From a virus: a stretch of DNA of 23,626 bases. The stretch is from positions 1 through 23,626 of IMG/VR virus record IMGVR_UViG_3300034200_001412; one strand, written 5' to 3'. Both the position numbers and the translations under genes were made by a program. Below are positions 5,658 through 23,626 of the stretch, in pieces. Position 1 is the first letter of the stretch; the number at the start of each line of letters is the position of its first letter. The notes under the pieces were generated by a model. It was not told the DNA's origin. It saw only the letters and a program-made list of their open reading frames with translations, and made no database searches.

Positions 5658-7994
5658 ATGTCGAACATCACTGTTATAAAAAGAAATGGAAAAAAAGAAT
5701 CTTTAACAATAGAAAAGTGGCAGACACAGATCGCCAAAGTATGCAGTGGAATTGCCGATGTTAGTCAAAGTATGATCGAAATTAAAAGTCAACCACATTT
5801 CTATGATGGTATTACTACTAAAGAAATTGACGAAATTACACTAAGAGCCATAGTTGATTTGATTGATATAGAAAGCAATCCAGATTTAGGACATACCAAT
5901 TATCAATATGTAGCAGGCAAACAGAGACTCAGTATGCTACGCAAAGATGTATATGGTGGATACGAGCCTCCTCACCTTTACGAAATCGTAAAGAAAAATG
6001 TTGCTACAGGATTGTACACAGAAGAATTGTTGTCCTGGTATACAGAAGAAGATTGGAACAAAATGAATGATATGATAGATCATTCAAAAGATGAACAATA
6101 TTCGTATGCTGCTATTGAACAACTGATTGAAAAATATCTAGTCAAGAATCGTAGCACCAAGGAAATATATGAAACTCCTCAAGTTAGATATATGGTGGCA
6201 GCAGCTACAGTCTTTCATAAAGAAGAACCCAATCAAGCACGTATGCGATATATTAAAGAATATTATACAGCGGCCAGTGACGGTCTTTTTACTCTCGCTA
6301 CTCCCGTTCTTGCTGGTCTGGGAACACCAACCAAGCAATTTAGTAGCTGCGTCCTTATACGCAGCGATGATGACCTTGATAGTATCTTCGCTTCTGGAGA
6401 AATGATGGCTAAGTATGCTAGTAAACGTGCAGGAATTGGATTAGAAATTGGTCGACTACGTCCATTAGGCTCTCCGATTCGCGGTGGCGAAATCATGCAC
6501 ACTGGCATGCTGCCTTTTTTAAAAAAATGGTTCGCAGATTTAAGGAGTTGCAGTCAAGGTGGAATACGTAATGCTAGTGCTACTGTTTTTTATCCAATTT
6601 GGCATCATCAGTTTGATGATCTTATCGTGCTTAAGAATAATCAAGGCACAGACGAGACCCGAGTCAGACACATGGACTACGGAGTGGTATTGTCTGCTTT
6701 CTTCTGGCGCAGATTTAAAAATAAAGAATCCATTACTTTCTTTGATCCCAACGAAGTACCAGACCTTTATGAAGCTTTCTACACAAACACGAAACGGTTT
6801 GAAGATTTATACATCAAGTACGAGAAAGTATCTGGTCTGCGCAAGAAAGTTATATCAGCAGAAGAAGTTTTTAAATCTGGAATTTTAAAAGAACGCACAG
6901 ACACGGGTCGTATCTATCTTGTGTTTATAGATAATGTGATGAATCAAGGACCATTTGATCCTGAGTATCATACGATATATCAAAGTAACCTATGTTGTGA
7001 AATATTGTTGCCCACTAAGGCATTTAAAAGATTAGATGACGAAGAAGGACGTATTGCCCTATGCACCCTGGGTTCAATCAACTGGGGTGCCTTTCGTAAC
7101 CCGGAAGATATGCGACGTGCTTGTCGCATCTTACAACGTAGTCTATGTAACATACTGGACTATCAAGATTTCTTATCAATTCAGAGTAAACTGAGCAATG
7201 ACGAAATTCAACCTTTGGGTATTGGTGTTACTAATCTTGCTTATTGGCATGCTAAACGAGGTCTTAAATACGGAGAAACCGATGCATTGGGAGAGGTTAA
7301 AACCTGGATCGAGCATCAAGCTTACTACCTAACTGAAGCTACAGTAGAACTAGCCAAAGAAAGAGGCAAGTGTAAAGACAGCGATAAGACTAGATATGGA
7401 CAAGGTATTTTTCCTTGGGAACTACGAGCAGAAGGTGTAAACGAATTAACTAACTTTGCTCCTGAACTTGATTGGGAACCTCTACGTGCTGAAATGAAAC
7501 AGCATGGTGTTCGTAATGCTACACTAATGGCCATTGCTCCGGTTGAAAGTAGCAGTGTTGTTATAAACAGCACGAACGGTATTGAGATGCCCATGAGCTT
7601 AATCAGTGTTAAGGAAAGTAAAGCAGGTTCGTTTACACAAGTGGTTCCTGAGTATCACAGATTGAAAAACAAATATCAATTAATGTGGGATCAAAGAGAT
7701 TGTGCAGGATATATTAAAACTGCCGCAGTGTTAGCCGCCTATGTTGATCAAAGTATTAGTACAAATACTTTTTATAATCCTGCACATTATCAGGATCGCA
7801 AAGTGCCTACAACATTAATTGCAAAAAATTTAATGCAAGCGCATTATTGGGGGATTAAGACCTTCTATTATAGCTTGATTAATAAAACAGGATCTAAGAG
7901 TCAAGAAGATCTAGGCGAACCAAAGATGAACGGGTTCCATGAAATGGATTTAAGCTTGTTAGATGATGCAGACTGTGAGGCTTGTAAGCTGTGA
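5658..7994 (+). CDS. nrdA: Class Ia ribonucleoside-diphosphate reductase, alpha subunit
   Basis: This is the catalytic subunit that reduces ribonucleoside diphosphates to deoxynucleotides for phage DNA synthesis. It is full length (778 aa; E. coli NrdA is 761). An ATP-cone begins at VIKRNGKKESL (6-16). The active-site set is complete: C231 (in QFSSCVLI), N444/C446/E448 (in SNLCCEIL) and C469 (in ALCTLGSINW), each offset by six or seven from the E. coli residues. The radical-transfer Tyr pair is in IKTFYYS near 736, and the C-terminal shuttle cysteines are in DCEACKL. A superoxide dismutase-like gene, nrdB and a glutaredoxin follow with overlaps, so one operon probably supplies enzyme and reductant. 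Confidence 0.97.
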   Translation: MSNITVIKRNGKKESLTIEKWQTQIAKVCSGIADVSQSMIEIKSQPHFYDGITTKEIDEITLRAIVDLIDIESNPDLGHTNYQYVAGKQRLSMLRKDVYGGYEPPHLYEIVKKNVATGLYTEELLSWYTEEDWNKMNDMIDHSKDEQYSYAAIEQLIEKYLVKNRSTKEIYETPQVRYMVAAATVFHKEEPNQARMRYIKEYYTAASDGLFTLATPVLAGLGTPTKQFSSCVLIRSDDDLDSIFASGEMMAKYASKRAGIGLEIGRLRPLGSPIRGGEIMHTGMLPFLKKWFADLRSCSQGGIRNASATVFYPIWHHQFDDLIVLKNNQGTDETRVRHMDYGVVLSAFFWRRFKNKESITFFDPNEVPDLYEAFYTNTKRFEDLYIKYEKVSGLRKKVISAEEVFKSGILKERTDTGRIYLVFIDNVMNQGPFDPEYHTIYQSNLCCEILLPTKAFKRLDDEEGRIALCTLGSINWGAFRNPEDMRRACRILQRSLCNILDYQDFLSIQSKLSNDEIQPLGIGVTNLAYWHAKRGLKYGETDALGEVKTWIEHQAYYLTEATVELAKERGKCKDSDKTRYGQGIFPWELRAEGVNELTNFAPELDWEPLRAEMKQHGVRNATLMAIAPVESSSVVINSTNGIEMPMSLISVKESKAGSFTQVVPEYHRLKNKYQLMWDQRDCAGYIKTAAVLAAYVDQSISTNTFYNPAHYQDRKVPTTLIAKNLMQAHYWGIKTFYYSLINKTGSKSQEDLGEPKMNGFHEMDLSLLDDADCEACKL

Positions 7995-8545
7995 TGAGTT
8001 ATGAATTTATAAAAGGATTTATTGCAGAAGGCCGTAATGAAAAATTAAGTATTAAACCTTTGCCTTATAAAAAGGACGAACTAAATCCTAGCATAAGTGA
8101 AAATACAATTAACTATCATTACGAAAAGTTAGCTAAGACCTATGCCGAAAGATATAACAAAGGCGAAGGTGACCCTGTGTTCAATGAAGCAGGAGTATTT
8201 TTACACAACATTCTTTTTCAACAATATCAAGCACCGAACAACAAAAATAAACCAGAAGGTGCTATAGAAGAATTTATAAACAAACACTATAAATCCTTTG
8301 ATAAGTTTAAAGAAGAGTTTGAAAAAACAGCAATGAGTATACAAGGTAGCGGATGGGTATATCTTAGTAAAAGTGGTAAAATAAAAACAATAACAAATCA
8401 CGAAGTAAAAAAAGACATAGTACTATTGATAGACTGGTGGGAGCATTCTTGGGCTCTGGATTACCAAGCTGACAAAAAGAAGTATTTAGAAAACCAATGG
8501 AAAATAATTAATTGGAATCATATAAATGAGCAAACAACAATATAA
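7994..8545 (+). CDS. Iron/manganese superoxide dismutase-like protein
   Basis: The 183-residue product aligns with Fe/Mn superoxide dismutase, which dismutates superoxide to oxygen and peroxide. All four metal ligands are recognisable: H42 (NYHYEKL), H71 (VFLHNIL), D147 and H151 (IDWWEHSW). The family's Tyr34 equivalent is Y50, and the C-terminal LDYQADKKKYLENQW block is typical. Differences: the usual second-shell His pair after the first ligand is Leu-Ala (46-47), and the position that often carries Gln near TNH is His136. It has about 20 extra N-terminal residues and no signal peptide, so it is cytoplasmic. ATG 7994 overlaps the nrdA stop; a GTG at 7991 is a less likely start. Activity is not certain given the changes. 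Confidence 0.8.
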   Translation: MSYEFIKGFIAEGRNEKLSIKPLPYKKDELNPSISENTINYHYEKLAKTYAERYNKGEGDPVFNEAGVFLHNILFQQYQAPNNKNKPEGAIEEFINKHYKSFDKFKEEFEKTAMSIQGSGWVYLSKSGKIKTITNHEVKKDIVLLIDWWEHSWALDYQADKKKYLENQWKIINWNHINEQTTI

Positions 8546-9629
8546 CTTACAAACAAAAACAGACTATTTAAGTCGTAAAATGTTCTTGGATCCAGAAGGT
8601 CCAGTTACTATTCAGAGATTTGAAGAAGTCAAGTATCCTAAGATACAAAAAATAGAACAAACAGCACGTGGTTTCTTTTGGGTGCCAGAAGAAATTAGTC
8701 TAACTAAAGATGCCGGAGATTTTAAAGAAGCCAGCGATGCGGTTAAACATATCTTTACTAGTAATTTATTACGTCAAACTGCCTTAGACAGTTTACAAGG
8801 CCGTGGCCCGGCACAAGTGTTTACTCCTTGTGTAAGTTTGCCTGAACTAGAAGCACTTATGTACAACTGGAGTTTCTTTGAAACTAATATTCACAGTCGT
8901 AGTTACAGTCACATTATCCGCAACATCTATAATGTGCCTAAGGAAGTGTTTAACACTATTCATGACACACAAGAAATTATTGACATGGCCAGTAGTGTAG
9001 GCAAGTATTATGATTTATTACATAGACTAAACTGTCGTAAAGAATTAAACGAAGCTAATGTAACTGACATCGAACATGTCAAAGCAATCTGGTTAGCACT
9101 CAATGCCAGTTATGCTTTAGAGGCATTCCGCTTTATGGTTAGTTTTGCTACAAGTTTAGCCATGGTAGAGAATAAAATCTTTATTGGTAATGGCAACATT
9201 ATCAGTTTGATTCTACAAGATGAATTGCTCCATAAAGAATGGACAGCCATGCTAATTAACAACGTGGTCAAAGAAGATGAAAGATTCGCTCGTGCTAAAA
9301 TCGAATGTGAAATCGAAGTATACACTATGTATGAAGATGTTATTCGTGAAGAAAAAGCATGGGCCGACTATCTTTTTAAGAAAGGTCCTGTTATTGGTTT
9401 GAATGCTAATATCTTAAAAGATTTTGTAGACTACACAGCAGTAGGCGCATTGAAGGAAATCGGAATCAAATATCAACACGCTGCTCCAAAGACTACACCA
9501 ATTCCTTGGTTTAACAAACACAGCGATACTAGTAAGAAACAAACTGCCTTACAAGAGAATGAGTCGACTAATTATGTTATAGGCGTAATGAGTGACGCTA
9601 TTGATTATGAGGAGTTGCCAACATTATGA
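8526..9629 (+). CDS. nrdB: Class Ia ribonucleotide reductase, beta (radical) subunit
   Basis: The 367-residue protein is the radical-generating partner of NrdA. Expected metal ligands are D88 (ALDSLQG), E199 (ALEAFRF), E233 and H236 (QDELLHK), with H123 and the radical Tyr127 in NIHSRSYSH. The remaining ligand is odd: the helix reads FFETNIHS, so the Glu (E119) is four residues before H123 instead of the usual three (ETIH in E. coli, ENIH in eukaryotes). The C-terminus, NYVIGVMSDAIDYEELPTL, matches the NrdA-binding tail and keeps the Tyr356 equivalent. It overlaps the SOD gene by 20 nt and the glutaredoxin gene by 4 nt. Confidence in the family is high; the cofactor type is uncertain. Confidence 0.95.
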   Translation: MSKQQYNLQTKTDYLSRKMFLDPEGPVTIQRFEEVKYPKIQKIEQTARGFFWVPEEISLTKDAGDFKEASDAVKHIFTSNLLRQTALDSLQGRGPAQVFTPCVSLPELEALMYNWSFFETNIHSRSYSHIIRNIYNVPKEVFNTIHDTQEIIDMASSVGKYYDLLHRLNCRKELNEANVTDIEHVKAIWLALNASYALEAFRFMVSFATSLAMVENKIFIGNGNIISLILQDELLHKEWTAMLINNVVKEDERFARAKIECEIEVYTMYEDVIREEKAWADYLFKKGPVIGLNANILKDFVDYTAVGALKEIGIKYQHAAPKTTPIPWFNKHSDTSKKQTALQENESTNYVIGVMSDAIDYEELPTL

Positions 9630-9850
9630 AAGCAGTAGTATGGAGTAAGTATCATTGTCCATTTTGTGATCAAGCTAAAGCCTTACTAACACACAAAGGA
9701 ATTGAGTTTGAAGAACGCAAAATCGGAGATGGCTATAGCAAAGAAGATTTATTAGAAGCAGTACCAACAGCACGTACAGTTCCACAGATTTTTTTAGATA
9801 ATAAACTAATTGGTGGATTTACAGAACTTAAACAATATTTAAAAGGCTAA
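9626..9850 (+). CDS. Glutaredoxin
   Basis: A compact 74-residue thioredoxin-fold protein with the CPFC active site (residues 11-14), the cis-proline TVPQIF segment and the GGF-x-ELK glutathione-binding end. In phages this protein usually reduces the C-terminal cysteines of NrdA. The position supports that: its ATG overlaps the nrdB stop by 4 nt. It is shorter than E. coli Grx1 (85 aa) but has all core elements. Confidence 0.93.
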   Translation: MKAVVWSKYHCPFCDQAKALLTHKGIEFEERKIGDGYSKEDLLEAVPTARTVPQIFLDNKLIGGFTELKQYLKG

Positions 9851-10166: not shown

Positions 10167-10376
10167 ATGCACAAGTTTGTTTTTTTAATTAATGAAGAAT
10201 TAAAAACATTTACTACTTGGGAATCTATTCCTGATGATTTCGATCACATTATAGAGTTCGTGCCTGAAATACCAGATGGTCCACATACACATGAGCAACA
10301 TGAAGAAATAGAAAAATGGCATAAAAGATTACAAATGTTAATAGACAAGGAAAATAAAAACCATGGCCTCGGCTAG
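10167..10376 (+). CDS. Hypothetical protein (69 aa)
   Basis: The start follows the upstream stop with no spacer. The product is small, acidic and His-rich in its second half (GPHTHEQHEEIEKWHKR, about residues 38-54), ending in a basic tail. The His/Glu cluster could bind metal, but no known motif is matched. It overlaps the next gene by 14 nt and is therefore part of the same operon. The family is not identified. Confidence 0.65.
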   Translation: MHKFVFLINEELKTFTTWESIPDDFDHIIEFVPEIPDGPHTHEQHEEIEKWHKRLQMLIDKENKNHGLG

Positions 10377-10815
10377 TCCTGCTACATTAACTCCTGTAAC
10401 AATAGGTGAAACTTTTACAGTAACAATAAACATTGTTCCTGATATGCTTGAAACTATTTCTTCTGTTTCTGCTATTCTTTCAGGATCTCCTTCTGAACCT
10501 GGAATTAATATAACAGGAGGGGCTTCGTCTGTAGTTATTAGCGGAAAATATGAATTTACATTTACAGACACTTTTAAATATACAGAGCCAGGAGAAAGTG
10601 ATTTAACTACTACTCCTATTTCTGTAGTAAGTCGAGGTAATATGCCTCCTGATAAAAATTTGTTTGAATTAGCTCAAGATCAGCGACAGTCAGAAATAAG
10701 AACTTATGTTTTAACTGTCAATGGAAATTCAACTCTAACAGTAACACAACAAGTATTAAATCCGTTAGAAGCGATGAGGCAATTTATGGCCAATTATAAT
10801 TACAAAGGAAGTTAA
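10363..10815 (+). CDS. Beta-rich hypothetical protein, probably virion-associated
   Basis: The 150-residue protein is rich in Thr, Ser and Val in alternating patterns (TIGETFTVTINIVP, VVISGKYEFTFTDTF, TYVLTVNGNSTLTVTQQ), as expected for an Ig-like or baseplate beta-sandwich. The last 20 residues form a helix. It lies 1 nt before the PAAR protein, and such pairs are usually baseplate or spike components, so a tail role is inferred. It overlaps the upstream gene by 14 nt. Confidence 0.65.
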   Translation: MASASPATLTPVTIGETFTVTINIVPDMLETISSVSAILSGSPSEPGINITGGASSVVISGKYEFTFTDTFKYTEPGESDLTTTPISVVSRGNMPPDKNLFELAQDQRQSEIRTYVLTVNGNSTLTVTQQVLNPLEAMRQFMANYNYKGS

Positions 10816-10816
10816 T

Positions 10817-11107
10817 ATGCCAGCAGTTACAAGAATTGGTGATGCAGATGTTGCGCACTGCTCTGGTATGGTCAGGGCAGTAGGATCCGGTAACGTTTTT
10901 GTTAACAACAAACCTGTAAGTAGACAAGGGGATGTGAATACAGTTCATTTATTACCAGGTAGTCCTTGCCCAGCACACTCTGCTCCAATCGCCGCAGGTA
11001 GCAGTACAGTCAAAGTGAACAATAAAGGATGTGGAAGAATAGGGGATGGTCTTTCTGGTTGCACCGCAGTGGCAGCAGGTTCACCAAACGTATTTGCAGG
11101 TGGTTGA
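10817..11107 (+). CDS. PAAR-repeat spike tip protein
   Basis: The 96-residue protein has the PAAR pattern: an N-terminal MPAVTRIGDADV strand, a central VFVNNKPVSRQGD strand pair, then VKVNNKGCGRIGDGLSGCTAV and a C-terminal GSPNVFAGG. His and Cys residues (for example H14, C15, the PCPAH segment) could supply the zinc site that holds the tip together. In T4 the equivalent protein, gp5.4, caps the membrane-piercing spike, so this is probably the tip of the tail needle. It ends the RNR transcription unit, and the promoter for the HAD gene overlaps its stop codon. Confidence 0.88.
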   Translation: MPAVTRIGDADVAHCSGMVRAVGSGNVFVNNKPVSRQGDVNTVHLLPGSPCPAHSAPIAAGSSTVKVNNKGCGRIGDGLSGCTAVAAGSPNVFAGG

Positions 11108-12020: not shown

Positions 12021-12083
12021 ATGGGAAAGCAACTACGCAAAAGAGCAGCAAAAACTAAGGCAGCAAGTAGGAGAAAACGCTAA
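12021..12083 (+). CDS. Tiny basic peptide (20 aa), paralogue-like
   Basis: ATG 12021 follows AAGGAG (12010-12015) at ideal spacing. The product, MGKQLRKRAAKTKAASRRKR, has ten basic residues of 20. It shares the MG start and a KTKAA core with the preceding peptide, suggesting duplication or the same binding function. Its stop (TAA 12081-12083) overlaps the iscU ATG, and the iscU ribosome-binding site AGGAG (12069-12073) lies inside it, so translation of the two is coupled. No family recognised. Confidence 0.6.
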   Translation: MGKQLRKRAAKTKAASRRKR

Positions 12084-12505
12084 TGTCATATTCTGATCAA
12101 GTTATAGATCATTATGAGAATCCTCGTAATGTCGGCAAACTTGATAAGAACGACCCTACTGTAGGAACAGGATTAGTAGGAGCACCGGCTTGCGGAGATG
12201 TTCTGCAATTACAAATTAAAGTAGAAGATAATATCATCACTGATGCCAAATTCAAGACGTATGGCTGCGGCTCAGCGATTGCAAGTTCGTCGCTTGTTAC
12301 TACATGGCTCAAAGGTAAAAGTCTTGATGAAGCGAATGCCATCAAGAATTCGGAAATTGCCGAAGAGCTCGCATTACCACCTGTCAAAATACACTGTTCG
12401 ATTCTTGCAGAAGATGCAATAAAAGCAGCTTTATCGGATTATAAATCAAAACATGATTCAATTAACAGAAATAGCAGCCAAGAAAGTACAGCAGCAGTTA
12501 TCTAA
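12083..12505 (+). CDS. iscU: Fe-S cluster scaffold protein IscU
   Basis: IscU is the scaffold on which [2Fe-2S] clusters are assembled before transfer. All key residues are present: C37 and D39 (GAPACGDVL), C62 (YGCGSAIASSS) and H104/C105 (VKIHCSILAED). It also has the LPPVK loop (98-102), which in bacteria is the docking motif for the HscA chaperone. At 140 aa it is slightly longer than the usual 128; the extra C-terminal 20 residues overlap the iscA gene by 53 nt and are polar. No iscS or hscA is in the window, so sulfur donation must come from the host or elsewhere in the phage. Confidence 0.95.
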   Translation: MSYSDQVIDHYENPRNVGKLDKNDPTVGTGLVGAPACGDVLQLQIKVEDNIITDAKFKTYGCGSAIASSSLVTTWLKGKSLDEANAIKNSEIAEELALPPVKIHCSILAEDAIKAALSDYKSKHDSINRNSSQESTAAVI

Positions 12506-12773
12506 TCGAGGGCACGGTCTTGGAATAATGGTAGGAGTAAGAACTACCGGATGTTCAGGACTTGCCTATAAATTAGAATATGTAGACACGCCACACACAG
12601 ATCAAATTACATACGAAAGCAACGGTGTTACTATCTTTGTAAATCCAAAAGACTTACCATATATCGATGGTATGACCATGGATTGGCGACGTCAAGGTCT
12701 TAACGAAGGATTTGACTTTATCAATAACAAAGAAAAGGATCGATGCGGTTGCGGTGAATCTTTTAGAGTTTGA
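12453..12773 (+). CDS. iscA: A-type Fe-S carrier protein (IscA/ErpA-like)
   Basis: The 106-residue protein has the A-type carrier fold with three cysteines: C34 in TTGCSGLAY, and C97 and C99 in DRCGCGESF. These carry iron or Fe-S clusters from the scaffold to apo-enzymes. The KLEYVD, VTIFVNPKDLPYIDG and NEGFDFIN segments are typical. It begins inside iscU in another frame, which fixes the start at the MIQLTEIAAKKV helix. The next gene begins 1 nt after its stop. IscA versus ErpA cannot be separated by eye. Confidence 0.93.
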   Translation: MIQLTEIAAKKVQQQLSNRGHGLGIMVGVRTTGCSGLAYKLEYVDTPHTDQITYESNGVTIFVNPKDLPYIDGMTMDWRRQGLNEGFDFINNKEKDRCGCGESFRV

Positions 12774-18864: not shown

Positions 18865-20742
18865 ATGAGCAAAATCATCGGTATCGATTTGGGTACTACT
18901 AATAGTTGTGTAGCAATAATTGAAAACGGTATAAGCAAAGTAATTGAAAATTCAGAAGGTGCTAGAACTACACCTAGTATTGTTGCTTATACTAATGAAG
19001 AAATCCTAGTCGGCGCACCAGCCAAACGTCAAGCAGTAACTAATCCAAAAAATACAATTCATGCATCAAAGCGTCTTATCGGACGTAAATTTAAAGAAGA
19101 CGCTGTACAAAAAGATATCAACTTAATGCCTTACGAGATCATGGAGGCTACTAACGGAGATGCTTGGATACGAGCTAATGGCAAAGAATTGGCTCCTCCA
19201 CAAGTTTCAGCGGAAGTACTACGTAAGATGAAGAAAACCGCAGAAGACTATCTTGGGCAAGAAGTAACACAGGCTGTTATCACTGTACCTGCTTACTTCA
19301 ACGATAGTCAGCGTCAAGCTACTAAAGATGCAGGAAAAATTGCAGGGCTAGAAGTTCTGCGTATTATTAACGAACCAACCGCAGCAGCTCTAGCCTATGG
19401 CGTCGATAAAACAGATAAACGTGATCGAAAAGTTGCTGTATATGATCTAGGTGGCGGTACTTTCGATATCAGCATTATAGAAATCGCTAACGTCGACGGA
19501 GATAAACAAATCGAAGTTCTTTCTACCAACGGCGATACATTCCTTGGCGGCGAAGACTTTGATAATAGAATTATGGATTATCTTGTATCTGAATTTAAGA
19601 AAGAGCAAGGTATTGACCTTAGTAAAGACGTCATGGCACTGCAACGTCTTAAAGAAGCAGCTGAACGTACAAAAATTGAATTGTCCAACAGTTCACAAAC
19701 TGATGTGAATCTTCCATATATCACTGCTGATGCTTCAGGTCCTAAGCATCTAAATCTTAAATTAACTAGAGCAAAATTAGAAAGTTTAGTAGAAGACTTA
19801 ATTCAAAGAAGTTTAGCACCTTGTCGTCAAGCAATGCAAGATGCAAAAGTTAGTGCTGCCGATATTGATGAAATTATTCTAGTCGGTGGGCAAACACGTA
19901 TGCCTAAAGTGCAAGAAGAAGTTGAAAAACTATTTGGTAAAGCACCACGTAAAGATGTTAATCCAGATGAAGCAGTTGCAGCTGGAGCAGCAGTACAAGG
20001 CGCAGTTCTAGGTGGAGATAGAAAAGACGTTCTGTTATTAGATGTGACTCCACTAAGTCTAGGCATTGAAACAATGGGAGGCATTTTTACTAAACTAATC
20101 AGTAAGAATACTACTATACCTACAAAACATAGTCAGGTATTTTCTACAGCCGAAGATAATCAGCCTGCGGTAACTATTAAAGTTGCACAAGGTGAACGCG
20201 AAATGTTTTCTTACAATAAGTTGTTAGGAGAATTTAATTTAGAAGGAATCGCTCCTGCACGTAGAGGCATGCCGCAGATTGAAGTGACATTGGATATAGA
20301 TGCTAATGGTATTATGCACGTGAGTGCCAAAGATAAGAACACAGGTAAAGAAAATAAAATTACCATTAAAAGCGATAGCGGATTAACTCCAGAAGAAATT
20401 GAACGTATGGTAAAGGACGCCGAAGCCAATGCAGACGAAGATCGTAAACAACGAGAGTTGATAGAAACACGAAATAATGCAGAAGGTATTATACATAACA
20501 TTCGTAGTGATATGAAAGAAGTTGAAACTCTTCTTACTGAAGAAGAAAAAACCAAAGTGAATGATGCTTGCAAAGTAGCTGAAGAAGCTTGTGCAGAATC
20601 AGACAAGGAAAAAATTAACGAATCTATCACTACACTTTTTGAAGTACAACAAATAGTTGCAACTGCAAAAAGTAAAAAGGAATCTTCAAGCGGAACTTCC
20701 GAAGATGTTGCAGTAGATGCAGAATTTAAGGAAACTGCTTAA
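18865..20742 (+). CDS. dnaK: Hsp70 chaperone DnaK
   Basis: The 625-residue protein is a complete DnaK. The ATPase domain (about 1-380) has the phosphate-1 loop [43 protein letters not shown] and the phosphate-2 loop [13 protein letters not shown], with [15 protein letters not shown]. The linker [17 protein letters not shown] leads to the substrate-binding domain and helical lid. The C-terminus, VDAEFKETA, is DnaK-like rather than HscA-like. DnaK folds newly made or damaged proteins with DnaJ and GrpE, which are not in this window, so host partners are needed. It may help capsid assembly or, by way of the IscU LPPVK loop, Fe-S transfer; both are inference. A late promoter and an elaborate leader precede it, and a terminator follows. 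Confidence 0.97.
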
Positions 20743-20747
20743 GAACT

Positions 20748-20778
20748 ATATTTGACGCCATTGGGTCAAATATTTTTA
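20748..20778 (+). terminator. Intrinsic terminator after dnaK
   Basis: ATATTTGAC (20748-20756) and GTCAAATAT (20765-20773) form a perfect 9-bp stem with an 8-nt loop, followed by a T-rich run. It starts 5 nt after the dnaK stop, so hsp20 probably needs its own transcription or read-through. Confidence 0.85.
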
Positions 20779-20780
20779 TT

Positions 20781-20804
20781 ATCTTGCTTAAATAAAGGAG
20801 AAAA
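20781..20804 (+). repeat. Chaperone leader box, copy 2 (before hsp20)
   Basis: ATCTTGCTTAA, then ATA, then AAGGAGAAAA, 3 nt before the hsp20 ATG. It is 22 of 24 identical to the copy before dnaK. In this copy CTTAAATA (20787-20794) also resembles a late promoter. Confidence 0.8.
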
Positions 20805-20807
20805 GAA

Positions 20808-21257
20808 ATGACAATGAATGGAACTTTAACACGTTTTGATACAACGGCCTTGAATAAGGCATTGGTAGGATTTGATAGATTATTTGATACTTTTGAAACA
20901 AGGTTTGCAAATCAACTATCAACAAATTATCCTCCACATAATATTATAAAAACAGATGATACTCATTATCAAATTGAAATAGCAATTGCAGGTTTCAAGA
21001 AAAATGAAATTAGTATCGAAGTTGAACAAGAGATTCTAACTGTAAAGGGAGAATCAGAAACACCTAATGAAAATACTGTTAAACAGTACTTACATCGTGG
21101 ACTAAGCAGTAGAAGCTTTGTAAGAAGTTGGCAACTTGCAGAACACATGGTTGTTAACGGTGCTGAAATCAAAGATGGTATCTTGACTATTAATCTAGAA
21201 TACATTATTCCAGAAGAAAAGAAAGCCAGGGTAATTGACATTGTAGAAGTTAAGTAA
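20808..21257 (+). CDS. Small heat-shock protein, Hsp20/IbpA type
   Basis: The 149-residue protein is a class A small heat-shock protein. It has the IbpA-like N-terminus (LVGFDRLFDTFETRF), the YPPHNIIKTDDTHYQIEIAIAG strand set that opens the alpha-crystallin domain, the EILTVKGE strand, a RSFVRSWQL loop, and the C-terminal GILTINLEYIIPEE before a short tail. Such proteins bind unfolded proteins without ATP and hand them to DnaK, encoded just upstream. The start is fixed by AAAGGAG seven bases upstream. Its 3' end holds the -35 box of the clpS promoter. Confidence 0.95.
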   Translation: MTMNGTLTRFDTTALNKALVGFDRLFDTFETRFANQLSTNYPPHNIIKTDDTHYQIEIAIAGFKKNEISIEVEQEILTVKGESETPNENTVKQYLHRGLSSRSFVRSWQLAEHMVVNGAEIKDGILTINLEYIIPEEKKARVIDIVEVK

Positions 21258-21263
21258 TATAAT
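21235..21263 (+). promoter_or_regulatory. Consensus sigma70-type promoter for clpS
   Basis: TTGACA (21235-21240), 17 nt, TATAAT (21258-21263): a perfect match, overlapping the hsp20 stop. The transcript would start near 21270, about 39 nt before clpS. Confidence 0.85.
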
Positions 21264-21265
21264 AC

Positions 21266-21286
21266 AAGGGGACTTTATGTCCCCTT
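21266..21286 (+). promoter_or_regulatory. Hairpin at the start of the clpS transcript
   Basis: AAGGGGAC (21266-21273) and GTCCCCTT (21279-21286) make a perfect 8-bp stem with a TTTAT loop. There is no T-tract after it, so it is a weak terminator candidate; it may instead stabilise the RNA or act as an operator next to the promoter. Confidence 0.6.
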
Positions 21287-21308
21287 ATAAACATCACAGG
21301 AGTTAAAC

Positions 21309-21614
21309 ATGTCTGTAGAACACGACGTAAAAATTGACGAAAAAATCAAACAAAATATACAAGAACCAAAACGTTGGAAAGTGATTTTGTTAAATGACGA
21401 TTATACTCCAATGGATTTTGTAATTTCCGTATTAACTACAATATTTAAACACAGCCAAGATACTGCTAAAGATATTACAATGCAGATACATAATGAAGGA
21501 AGTGGAATTGCTGGAGTTTACACTTTTGAAATTGCAGAAGTAAAAGCAGTCGAAGCAACTTCAATTTCTAGATCTCAAGGGTTTCCTTTACAAATTAAAT
21601 TAGAAGAAGAATGA
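21309..21614 (+). CDS. clpS: ClpS-type adaptor of the Clp protease
   Basis: The 101-residue protein has the whole ClpS core: KRWKVILLNDDYTPMDFVIS (the N29-D30-D31 pocket), a helix ending HSQDTAKDITMQIHNEG (H61), and IAGVYTFEIAEVKAVEAT. In bacteria ClpS delivers N-end-rule substrates to ClpAP and blocks other ClpA substrates. Its N-degron pocket residues are retained, so it may redirect host proteolysis during infection. ClpA and ClpP are not in the window. It has a strong promoter and AGGAG at 21298-21302, and overlaps heme oxygenase by 4 nt. Confidence 0.95.
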   Translation: MSVEHDVKIDEKIKQNIQEPKRWKVILLNDDYTPMDFVISVLTTIFKHSQDTAKDITMQIHNEGSGIAGVYTFEIAEVKAVEATSISRSQGFPLQIKLEEE

Positions 21615-22153
21615 GTCTACGAGAAATAACTAAAGATTTGCACTCAGATGCAGAAAGAACAGTATTTGCCAAAAAGCTAGTTACAGGTTCTTTCACTAAA
21701 GAAGAATACGCTAACTATCTTTGGCAAATGGTACTGGTGTATAATGGTATCGAAACTGCGGCTAACAGTCAAGGAATGTTGAAAAATCTTCCTGACATTG
21801 AACGAGCACATAAGATTTATCAAGACTGTATTGAATTAGTAGGGCCTTATCATAATTTAACTTGGTTGCCTGAAACCATTAGCTATTGCAAGTATTTGTT
21901 AGATTTAAATTACGATCAAGAACGTAGACATTTAATCAAAGCTCATTTATATTGTCGCCATATGGGAGATTTATTTGGTGGGCAAATCATTGCAAAGAAA
22001 TGTCCAGGTCAAGGTCGATTTTATCAATTCAAAGATGCGGAAAATTTAAAAACTGCTATACGTGCTGAATTAACAGACGACCTTGGTGACGAAGCAAAGG
22101 TCGCTTTTCAATGGGCTATTAAGATAATGAAAGCATTGGTTAGAGAAGAATGA
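21611..22153 (+). CDS. Biliverdin-producing heme oxygenase
   Basis: The 180-residue helical protein has the proximal heme ligand H11 (TKDLHSDAE), the WQMVLVYNGIE helix and the distal GDLFGGQ segment (119-125; usually GDLSGGQ) that contacts heme. These enzymes open heme to biliverdin, CO and iron using reducing power from ferredoxin or NADPH. In cyanophages ho1 is part of bilin synthesis, but no bilin reductase gene is seen here, so iron release is a better guess. It overlaps clpS by 4 nt and the desaturase by 4 nt, making a tight operon. Confidence 0.92.
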   Translation: MSLREITKDLHSDAERTVFAKKLVTGSFTKEEYANYLWQMVLVYNGIETAANSQGMLKNLPDIERAHKIYQDCIELVGPYHNLTWLPETISYCKYLLDLNYDQERRHLIKAHLYCRHMGDLFGGQIIAKKCPGQGRFYQFKDAENLKTAIRAELTDDLGDEAKVAFQWAIKIMKALVREE

Positions 22154-22902
22154 CCGGATTGGATTTAAATAAAGAATTTCGAGATTATTATTTAAAATTT
22201 AATCTTCCTTTACAAATTGTCGCAATTACAGCGACAATTTTTTTATCTTTTAATATAGTCAAAGTTCTTTTATTTACGATATTTTTTCATATTTTAATTT
22301 ATTGGGCAGGTATCCAATGTGGTTCTCATAAATTATTTTCTCATAAAAGTTGGATACCAAAATATAAATGGATCACTTATTCCATTGGCATTATTTCTTG
22401 TTTTGGAATCATGGGGGGTCCTATACTATGGAGTTTAATGCACAGGTGGCATCATGCACATAGTGATACTGATTTAGATCCACACAGTCCTAAACATGGA
22501 TACTTACATAGTTATTTTACATGGTTTTTAAACATTCCACATGTACCTCTAAGAATAATAAAAGACCATATTTTAGATTACAATTTGATACGTATTGATA
22601 GAAATTGTAAAAAAATTGTTTACATTACTTTACTTTTTTTAACAGTGCTAGATTACGAAATTGCATTAAGTCTATTACTCGCTATGGTAATCACTTTTCA
22701 TATAGAAATGAGTGTTAATTGTTTCGCTCATAAACAATTAGATGGGGAATGGAAAAGTGTTAACTATATAAGTTTAGCATTTATAACAGGAGGCAGCACT
22801 CTACATGCAAACCATCATGCAGATTCTTCAAATTGGAATTTTAGTAAAAAATGGTTTGAGCTTGATCCCAGTGCATGGATTATAAAATGTTTGAAAAAAT
22901 AA
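22150..22902 (+). CDS. Membrane fatty-acid (acyl) desaturase 1
   Basis: The 250-residue protein has the three histidine boxes of integral di-iron desaturases: H60-x4-H65 (GSHKLFSH), HRWHH (98-102) and HANHH (219-223), with the LDPHSPKHG stretch of delta-9-type enzymes. Four hydrophobic segments fit two hairpins in the membrane (about 20-40, 40-55, 75-92, 158-185). It would introduce a double bond in acyl chains, affecting membrane fluidity; it needs oxygen and an electron donor. It is shorter than many (about 300 aa), but all boxes are intact. A second, related desaturase begins inside its 3' end. Confidence 0.93.
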   Translation: MTGLDLNKEFRDYYLKFNLPLQIVAITATIFLSFNIVKVLLFTIFFHILIYWAGIQCGSHKLFSHKSWIPKYKWITYSIGIISCFGIMGGPILWSLMHRWHHAHSDTDLDPHSPKHGYLHSYFTWFLNIPHVPLRIIKDHILDYNLIRIDRNCKKIVYITLLFLTVLDYEIALSLLLAMVITFHIEMSVNCFAHKQLDGEWKSVNYISLAFITGGSTLHANHHADSSNWNFSKKWFELDPSAWIIKCLKK

Positions 22903-23626
22903 ATTACTTAGATAAATTTAGATTATTTTATTGTTTTAATATTTTAAGTATTCCAGTAGGAATCGTTGTTGCTTTCTATACATCGCTATGGTGGCTTGTA
23001 CTAGGCATTGTATGGTATCGCATAGTAGGCATATTATTTGTATCAATAGGATTACATAGATATTTTACTCATAGAAGTTTTAAAACTGGATATAAAAGAC
23101 ACTTGTTGTTTGCTATAGGATCCATTATTAGCGGTAACGGTAGTCCAATTGCATTTGCTGCTCAACATACACATCATCATAGACACAGTGATAAAGAGTT
23201 AGATTTACATAGCCCTAAAGATGGAATATTACATTCATGTTTTTCTTGGTTACTAAATTCTAAAAAATGGTTTTTAGAAGAAAAAGAAATGAAAATTCCC
23301 ATGTTTATCTTAAAAGATAGGGTTGTAAATTTTATTCATAAGTATTATTTCGCCTGCTGGTTTTTAATATCAGCAATACTATTTTTAATAGATTGGAAAT
23401 TGTTCTTGTTTCTTATGCCTTTCGCAGGAGGACTTAGCATTTTAACCAGCAATATAGTAGTAGGGTACCTAGTGCATATTAAGTTGCCAGGATCATATAA
23501 AAGTTTTGATACCAAGGACAATAGTTATAATAATAAATGGATTCAGATAATCGAAACAGCAGAAGGGTATCATAATAATCATCATGCAGATCCTTCTAAC
23601 TATAATTTTGCAAAGAACAAAGGTGA
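22887..23626 (+). CDS. Membrane fatty-acid desaturase 2, cut by the window end
   Basis: No stop codon occurs before the window edge. From ATG 22887 it overlaps the first desaturase by 16 nt in another frame. The 246 visible residues include two hydrophobic segments, GLHRYFTHRSF (H57-x4-H62), HTHHH (H94, H97, H98), LDLHSPKDG and a third box HNNHH near 230 followed by ADPSNYNF. All three boxes are present, so only a short C-terminus is missing. It is a diverged relative of its neighbour, so the two may act on different substrates or positions. Confidence 0.9.
   Translation, partial: MFEKINYLDKFRLFYCFNILSIPVGIVVAFYTSLWWLVLGIVWYRIVGILFVSIGLHRYFTHRSFKTGYKRHLLFAIGSIISGNGSPIAFAAQHTHHHRHSDKELDLHSPKDGILHSCFSWLLNSKKWFLEEKEMKIPMFILKDRVVNFIHKYYFACWFLISAILFLIDWKLFLFLMPFAGGLSILTSNIVVGYLVHIKLPGSYKSFDTKDNSYNNKWIQIIETAEGYHNNHHADPSNYNFAKNKG

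Follow-up and report, generated by a model that had tools for sequence, protein, structure and literature searches.

A superoxide dismutase gene between phage nrdA and nrdB encodes a protein with a predicted capsid-targeting propeptide

Why does a phage encode a superoxide dismutase (SOD) between the two subunits of its ribonucleotide reductase (RNR)? The window analysed here is a stretch of 23,626 nucleotides of viral DNA (IMG/VR record IMGVR_UViG_3300034200_001412). On its plus strand, nrdA, encoding the class Ia RNR large subunit (5658..7994, 778 aa; phrog_84, E 1.3e-266; PF02867), is followed by a phage Fe/Mn SOD homologue with an ATG start (sod, 7994..8545, 183 aa), by nrdB, encoding the class Ia R2 subunit (8526..9629, 367 aa; phrog_86; E. 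coli NrdB-type, E 9.4e-71), and by a glutaredoxin gene (9626..9850; PF00462, E 9.6e-14). As described in the earlier note on this DNA, the SOD gene overlaps both of its neighbours, sharing one base with the nrdA stop codon (TGATG) and 20 bases with nrdB. That note suggested that the SOD could protect NrdB or even help to assemble it. Our analysis points to another role. The SODs of large freshwater phages carry a near-universal tag resembling the head-packing tags of T4, so the enzyme is probably located in the particle and injected with the DNA, rather than serving the RNR. We consider it probable that, in a phage-specific branch of the Fe/Mn SODs, the enzyme has turned into an internal head protein of the T4 type, ejected at infection.

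Fold and metal site of the phage SOD

Both SOD domains are detected in the protein above the Pfam cut-offs (PF02777/PF00081; Sod_Fe_C E 3.8e-24, Sod_Fe_N 1.4e-07), and the PDB sequences that it matches belong to Fe/Mn SODs (best E 3.6e-29). An AlphaFold2 model calculated with 48 family members as input shows a confident SOD fold (mean pLDDT 90.7, pTM 0.85), in which residues 1-13 alone fall below pLDDT 50 and appear disordered. The PDB matches of this model in Foldseek are likewise Fe/Mn SODs, with TM values up to 0.82.

The four ligands of Fe/Mn SODs named in the earlier note are present and align with the known ligand positions. They are His42 (8117..8119), His71 (8204..8206), and Asp147 and His151, which belong to an Asp147-Trp-Trp-Glu150-His151 segment (8432..8446) that also contains the conserved Glu. 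His42 and His71, as well as Leu46, Tyr50, Gly67 and His136, are invariant in 165/165 phage homologues, Asp147 and His151 are kept in all 164/164 with sequence at that point, and the equivalents of Tyr34 and Glu170 are invariant or nearly so among the 165. The window protein is a genuine member of the SOD family with a complete ligand set. Within the clade of nrd-linked SODs described below, the domain is under strong purifying selection (pN/pS 0.19, compared with ~0.28 for the N-terminal tag; both values are approximate, with synonymous sites near saturation).

The second-shell differences noted earlier are also confirmed. Leu46-Ala47 (8129..8134) replaces the His30-His31 pair, and His136 (8399..8401) occupies the C-terminal water-coordinating position, which is Gln or His in other SODs. 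Throughout the phage SOD family the second-shell His pair of the HXXXHH motif is absent, with Leu at position 46 and Ala or Tyr at position 47, and XD-2 is Leu in 234/237 proteins. The partner of His30 (Tyr174 in E. coli MnSOD) is also gone, replaced by Ala (Ala154 in the window, 8453..8455; Ala in 146/164 of the family) or, less often, by another residue. Furthermore, the phage proteins lack ~20 residues of the alpha1-alpha2 hairpin as well as 6-12 residues ahead of the Asp ligand. Most SodFM3/4 members also have a C-terminal water-coordinating His, so that His136 alone is not strange; the second His of HXXXHH is already lost in SodFM4 (PMC10172142). The loss of both His30 and Tyr174 could reduce dismutase activity.

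The N-terminal extension and its likeness to T4 propeptides

Phage SODs have ~24 residues before a conserved Pro-Tyr and cellular SODs ~8; the phage proteins carry an N-terminal extension of 10-13 residues that is absent from the cellular enzymes. It follows the pattern M-x(n)-[LIV]-x-E-[GAS...]. In the window it reads MSYEFIKGFIAE|GR, the bar marking the predicted cut, and other phage SODs start with MRAVEFLTE|SK, MREYIDLLE|AS, MYNFIRYVSLNE|G or MNDSIKKYISIAE|A. A [LIV]xE motif is found within the first 18 residues of 235/238 SODs; the SOD of Vibrio phage 2.275 lacks the tag. The Glu of the motif is present in all 49 aligned SODs, and an alignment anchored on it shows Leu, Ile or Val at P3 (L29/I17/V3) and mostly Gly, Ala or Ser at P1'. 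In the nrd clade, Phe5, [ILV]10, Glu12 and Gly13 are found in 27/27 SODs and Ile6 in 26/27, with variable residues between them.

We predict that the first 12 residues (7994..8029) form a capsid-targeting propeptide, cut by a prohead protease after Glu12 and before Gly13, on the basis of the [LIV]xE motif, the conservation of its Glu, the likeness to T4 IPII and IPIII and the disorder in the model. The mature SOD domain would then run from Gly13 (8030..8542), an assignment in keeping with the distance to the first ligand His. In most phage SODs the predicted cut lies 28-31 residues before this His, and E. coli SodB/SodA have 25 residues from Met1 to His26; cleavage would therefore leave a SOD of normal N-terminal length.

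T4 IPII and IPIII both start with MKTYQEFIAE|A. The T4 protease gp21 cleaves after L/I-X-E, the propeptides of the internal proteins comprise 10-19 residues, and fusions of the IPIII tag to beta-galactosidase, GFP or nuclease are packaged and then delivered to the host (PMC9026906). A propeptide of such length and ending, scored as [LIV]xE, is found in 48/50 SODs at 80% non-redundancy. The cognate protease and a matching capsid cleavage motif are present as well. A gp21-like prohead protease (PF03420) is encoded in 9/14 SOD-phage contigs, the other five being possible fragments, and the T4 gp23 cleavage site FLTE|AEIGG aligns with YLAE|S, QLSE|S and FLVE|N in the major capsid proteins of G002 (a 364-kb contig with an identical SOD), G014 and PA5oct, respectively. 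Other protein starts in G002 are MKSFKEYLTES, in a virion structural family (phrog_14802), MKILEVINEA and MNIFEIIAEA.

The L/I-x-E motif alone proves nothing, since it is short and native to the unrelated IscA, ErpA and IF-1, which match it through their own family sequence. Among E. coli proteins, 7/45 match a loose form of the pattern and 2/45 a strict form. The motif occurs in none of the neighbouring NrdA, Grx, IscU, QueD, KdsA and UVDE proteins and in 1/13 NrdB proteins. Elsewhere in the window, a Pro/Ala-rich protein of 334 aa (225-1229), with no Pfam or PHROG match, starts with MKINDIVLKE|G and is a candidate capsid-targeted protein.

In PA5oct, the SOD (gp223) bears the depositors' ESI-MS/MS tag, and most of the tagged proteins are virion parts. 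NrdA, NrdB, ThyA (thymidylate synthase), FtsH and others are also on this list; because replication and metabolic enzymes are tagged too, and contamination is possible, the detection is weak evidence of packaging. Only one of three motif patterns tried is enriched among the MS-detected proteins of PA5oct ([ILV]xE[AGS], 7/93 vs 2/191, p 0.007). The genes flanking SOD look early or metabolic, which counts against packaging. So does the chemistry: dismutation by the phage SOD would yield H2O2, and a search for a phage catalase partner found none. An AhpC-like gene is present in just 5/11 genomes.

From these features we infer a course of packaging, cleavage, ejection and catalysis. The SOD would be synthesized with its 12-residue propeptide, which would recruit it to the core of the prohead, whereupon the gp21-like protease of the phage would cleave after Glu12. 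The trimmed, normal SOD would stay in the DNA-filled head and enter the host with the genome at infection. It would then clear superoxide from the first moments, shielding iron enzymes such as host Fe-S proteins, the products of phage Fe-S assembly and the class Ia RNR. Fe-S clusters are damaged by superoxide, which fits the linkage of SOD to the Fe-S assembly genes described below. The broader proposal is that a widespread lineage of T4-like jumbo phages uses such a propeptide to load an active Fe/Mn SOD into the head and delivers it together with the DNA, thereby defending the host, or the packaged genome, from superoxide ahead of phage gene expression. In our estimate this proposal has an even chance of being correct; it would parallel the virion SOD of chloroviruses with an unrelated enzyme.

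Gene neighbourhood and alternative roles

In a tree built from 100 non-redundant phage SODs together with 11 cellular SODs, the phage proteins form one clade apart from the sampled cellular SODs (support 100/98). The nrd-linked SODs constitute a single nested clade (n=27, 100/97), and one further SOD beside nrdB (L160) is found elsewhere in the tree. The PA5oct and Vibrio phage SODs are on long branches, and their placement is unsure. Across the deeper tree, most of the other placed SODs are located directly 5' of iscU-iscA or erpA, frequently with gene overlap; 53/100 non-redundant SODs have an iscU, iscA or erpA gene no more than 1.7 kb away, and two loci (L139, L245) have the intermediate order nrdA-SOD-iscU-iscA-nrdB. 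The window itself encodes, also on the plus strand, the Fe-S scaffold IscU (12083..12505; TIGR01999 above cut-off), whose gene is directly 3' of SOD in sister phages, and the A-type Fe-S carrier IscA (12453..12773; TIGR00049 above cut-off; TIGR02011, E 7.5e-39).

This arrangement speaks for a cytosolic SOD that belongs to an Fe-S/iron supply module, is made early and shields the cluster assembly that depends on phage IscU, IscA and ErpA, the nrd linkage being secondary. Two A-type carriers (IscA, ErpA) per contig are found in 8/11 contigs, and the phages have no IscS scoring above cut-off, which implies that the jumbo phages rely on a host sulfur donor. Such a role is compatible with packaging as an extra feature, but it leaves unexplained the L/I-x-E extension that is conserved in all contexts, and IscU carries no such tag. 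We regard it as rather unlikely.

Several other features of these loci are noted here. IscU and/or A-type carriers are encoded in the jumbo phages G002, G003, G006, G007, G012, G013, G015 and G017, as at 12083-12773 of the window. In the iscU-linked clade (L118, L093, L095 and relatives), the gene 5' of SOD encodes a UvsE/UVDE UV-damage endonuclease and is itself preceded, at greater distance, by KdsA- and QueD-like genes. The window region 18865-23626 contains dnaK, hsp20, clpS, a heme oxygenase gene and a tandem pair of fatty-acid-desaturase-like genes, the second of which runs off the end of the contig; hsp20-clpS is directly 5' of SOD in PA5oct. At 10363-11107, a match to a PHROG labelled toxin (phrog_23903), with no Pfam match, is followed by a PAAR-repeat protein.

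The proposal that the SOD is cytosolic, co-translated with NrdA and NrdB, and protects or helps assemble the metal-radical cofactor of NrdB is supported by the gene overlaps on both sides, by the fixed order within a well-supported clade and by the separate occurrence beside nrdB in L160. In the closest 80 viral loci, SOD lies between nrdA and nrdB in 80/80, where the contig reaches that far; together with the purifying selection, this rules out a random recent insertion without synteny. As to how often the gene takes this position, a question raised by the earlier note, the order is constant within its own clade (27/100 non-redundant phage SODs), while the wider clade adjoins iscU, iscA or erpA instead. 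Seen from NrdB, SOD is absent from 67/71 informative loci with 83-99% identical NrdB and lies between nrdA and nrdB in 3/71, rough frequencies that rest on the matches listed. Twelve of these contigs, up to 200 kb and possibly partial, lack SOD along their whole length, and the nrdA-nrdB gap is also occupied by class II aldolase, HNH and iscU genes. The consistent nrdAB linkage expected of an RNR accessory protein is thus not observed, the arrangement being confined to one SOD clade and most listed nrd loci being devoid of SOD. The synteny is stable in one lineage and does not single out the RNR as partner; we read the nrdA-SOD-nrdB order as one among several taken by a mobile redox/iron cassette, and not as a sign of an NrdB chaperone. 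In L023-L030 (except L028 and L029), NrdA and NrdB are ~93-96% identical to those of the window and SOD just 78-79%, which suggests that recombination replaced the SOD gene alone or that this gene evolves faster.

The link between superoxide and R2 cofactor assembly, also invoked for this locus, does not hold up here. NrdI (PF07972) is absent from 11 contigs of up to 372 kb, and NrdB resembles the class Ia R2 of E. coli and has the radical Tyr, so superoxide-dependent (class Ib/Ie) activation is rejected. There are no Fer2 matches indicating a YfaE-like ferredoxin in the 11 contigs. In the FFETNIHSRSY segment of NrdB, a single residue is inserted between the equivalents of Glu115 and His118 of E. 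coli R2 (E-T-N-I-H vs E-T-I-H), a change that could affect the di-metal site. We discarded this insertion as a link to SOD, since it is shared by the SOD-less phages X1, Moby, RaK2 and SNUABM_19; it is not found in Cr30 or Vibrio S4-7. With the SOD N-terminus pointing to the capsid and the relatives beside Fe-S genes, a dedicated NrdB role appears improbable.

A packaged but catalytically idle SOD fold, serving as a structural or DNA-binding head protein or a decoy with its metal site kept for stability, would accord with the family-wide replacement of His30 and Tyr174, with the shortened hairpin and with the fact that virus SOD homologues outside phages, such as those of poxviruses, need not be active, but we consider it very improbable given the invariance of the four ligands, the Tyr34 equivalent and the conserved Glu over a very divergent family, the water-coordinating His that is always kept and the strongly constrained domain.

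Relation to known systems and implications

We return to the packaged SOD. With the SodFM family (PF00081/PF02777) the phage SODs share the fold, the four metal ligands and the Tyr34 and Glu170 equivalents, and with most SodFM3/4 members the C-terminal His (PMC10172142). They differ in the missing HXXXHH His pair and partner Tyr, in the shortened hairpin and pre-Asp loop, in the N-terminal protease-motif extension and in their separation from the sampled cellular SODs. The likeness to T4 IPII and IPIII consists of a 10-13-residue propeptide ending in L/I/V-x-E|A/G/S, with the protease and the capsid motif in the same genomes. In contrast to those small, basic, phage-specific proteins, the phage SOD is a cargo with a metalloenzyme fold whose packaging is predicted.

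A virion SOD has a precedent in the Cu/Zn SOD (A245R) of chlorovirus PBCV-1, which is reported to be carried in the virus particle, superoxide being lower after infection (PMC7019647). It is likewise virus-encoded, but its fold is unrelated and the virus infects a eukaryotic alga. We know of no prohead-protease tag on A245R.

The SodB proteins of PA5oct, MIJ3 and Callisto (Wroclawvirus; jumbo T4-like phages) show the phage SOD signature and the tag MNDSIKKYISIAE|A. They are just 42% identical to the window SOD and adjoin hsp20-clpS, not nrd or isc genes. They are annotated as SodB or hypothetical, and our literature search found no study of their function.

Phage SODs as such are already known and are found in databases under this name. 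We found no study of phage SOD function in the open-licence literature, the paper defining SodFM1-5 does not mention phages or viruses (PMC10172142), and a 2026 jumbo-phage review does not mention SOD. What appears new, judging from sequence, is a SodFM branch with a predicted virion-targeting propeptide. In the BFVD, a 501-aa uncultured phage protein annotated as superoxide dismutase (A0A6J5L953) is far longer than the SOD domain and is possibly a fusion.

P. aeruginosa PAO1 supports the growth of PA5oct and Callisto, a setting in which packaging is directly testable. The L/I-x-E propeptides provide a sequence handle for predicting, in T4-like jumbo phages, which other auxiliary metabolic enzymes are carried in the virion and which are cytosolic. 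If the proposal is correct, these phages would deliver an antioxidant enzyme into the host as infection begins, which would link superoxide to the earliest minutes of the conflict between phage and host.
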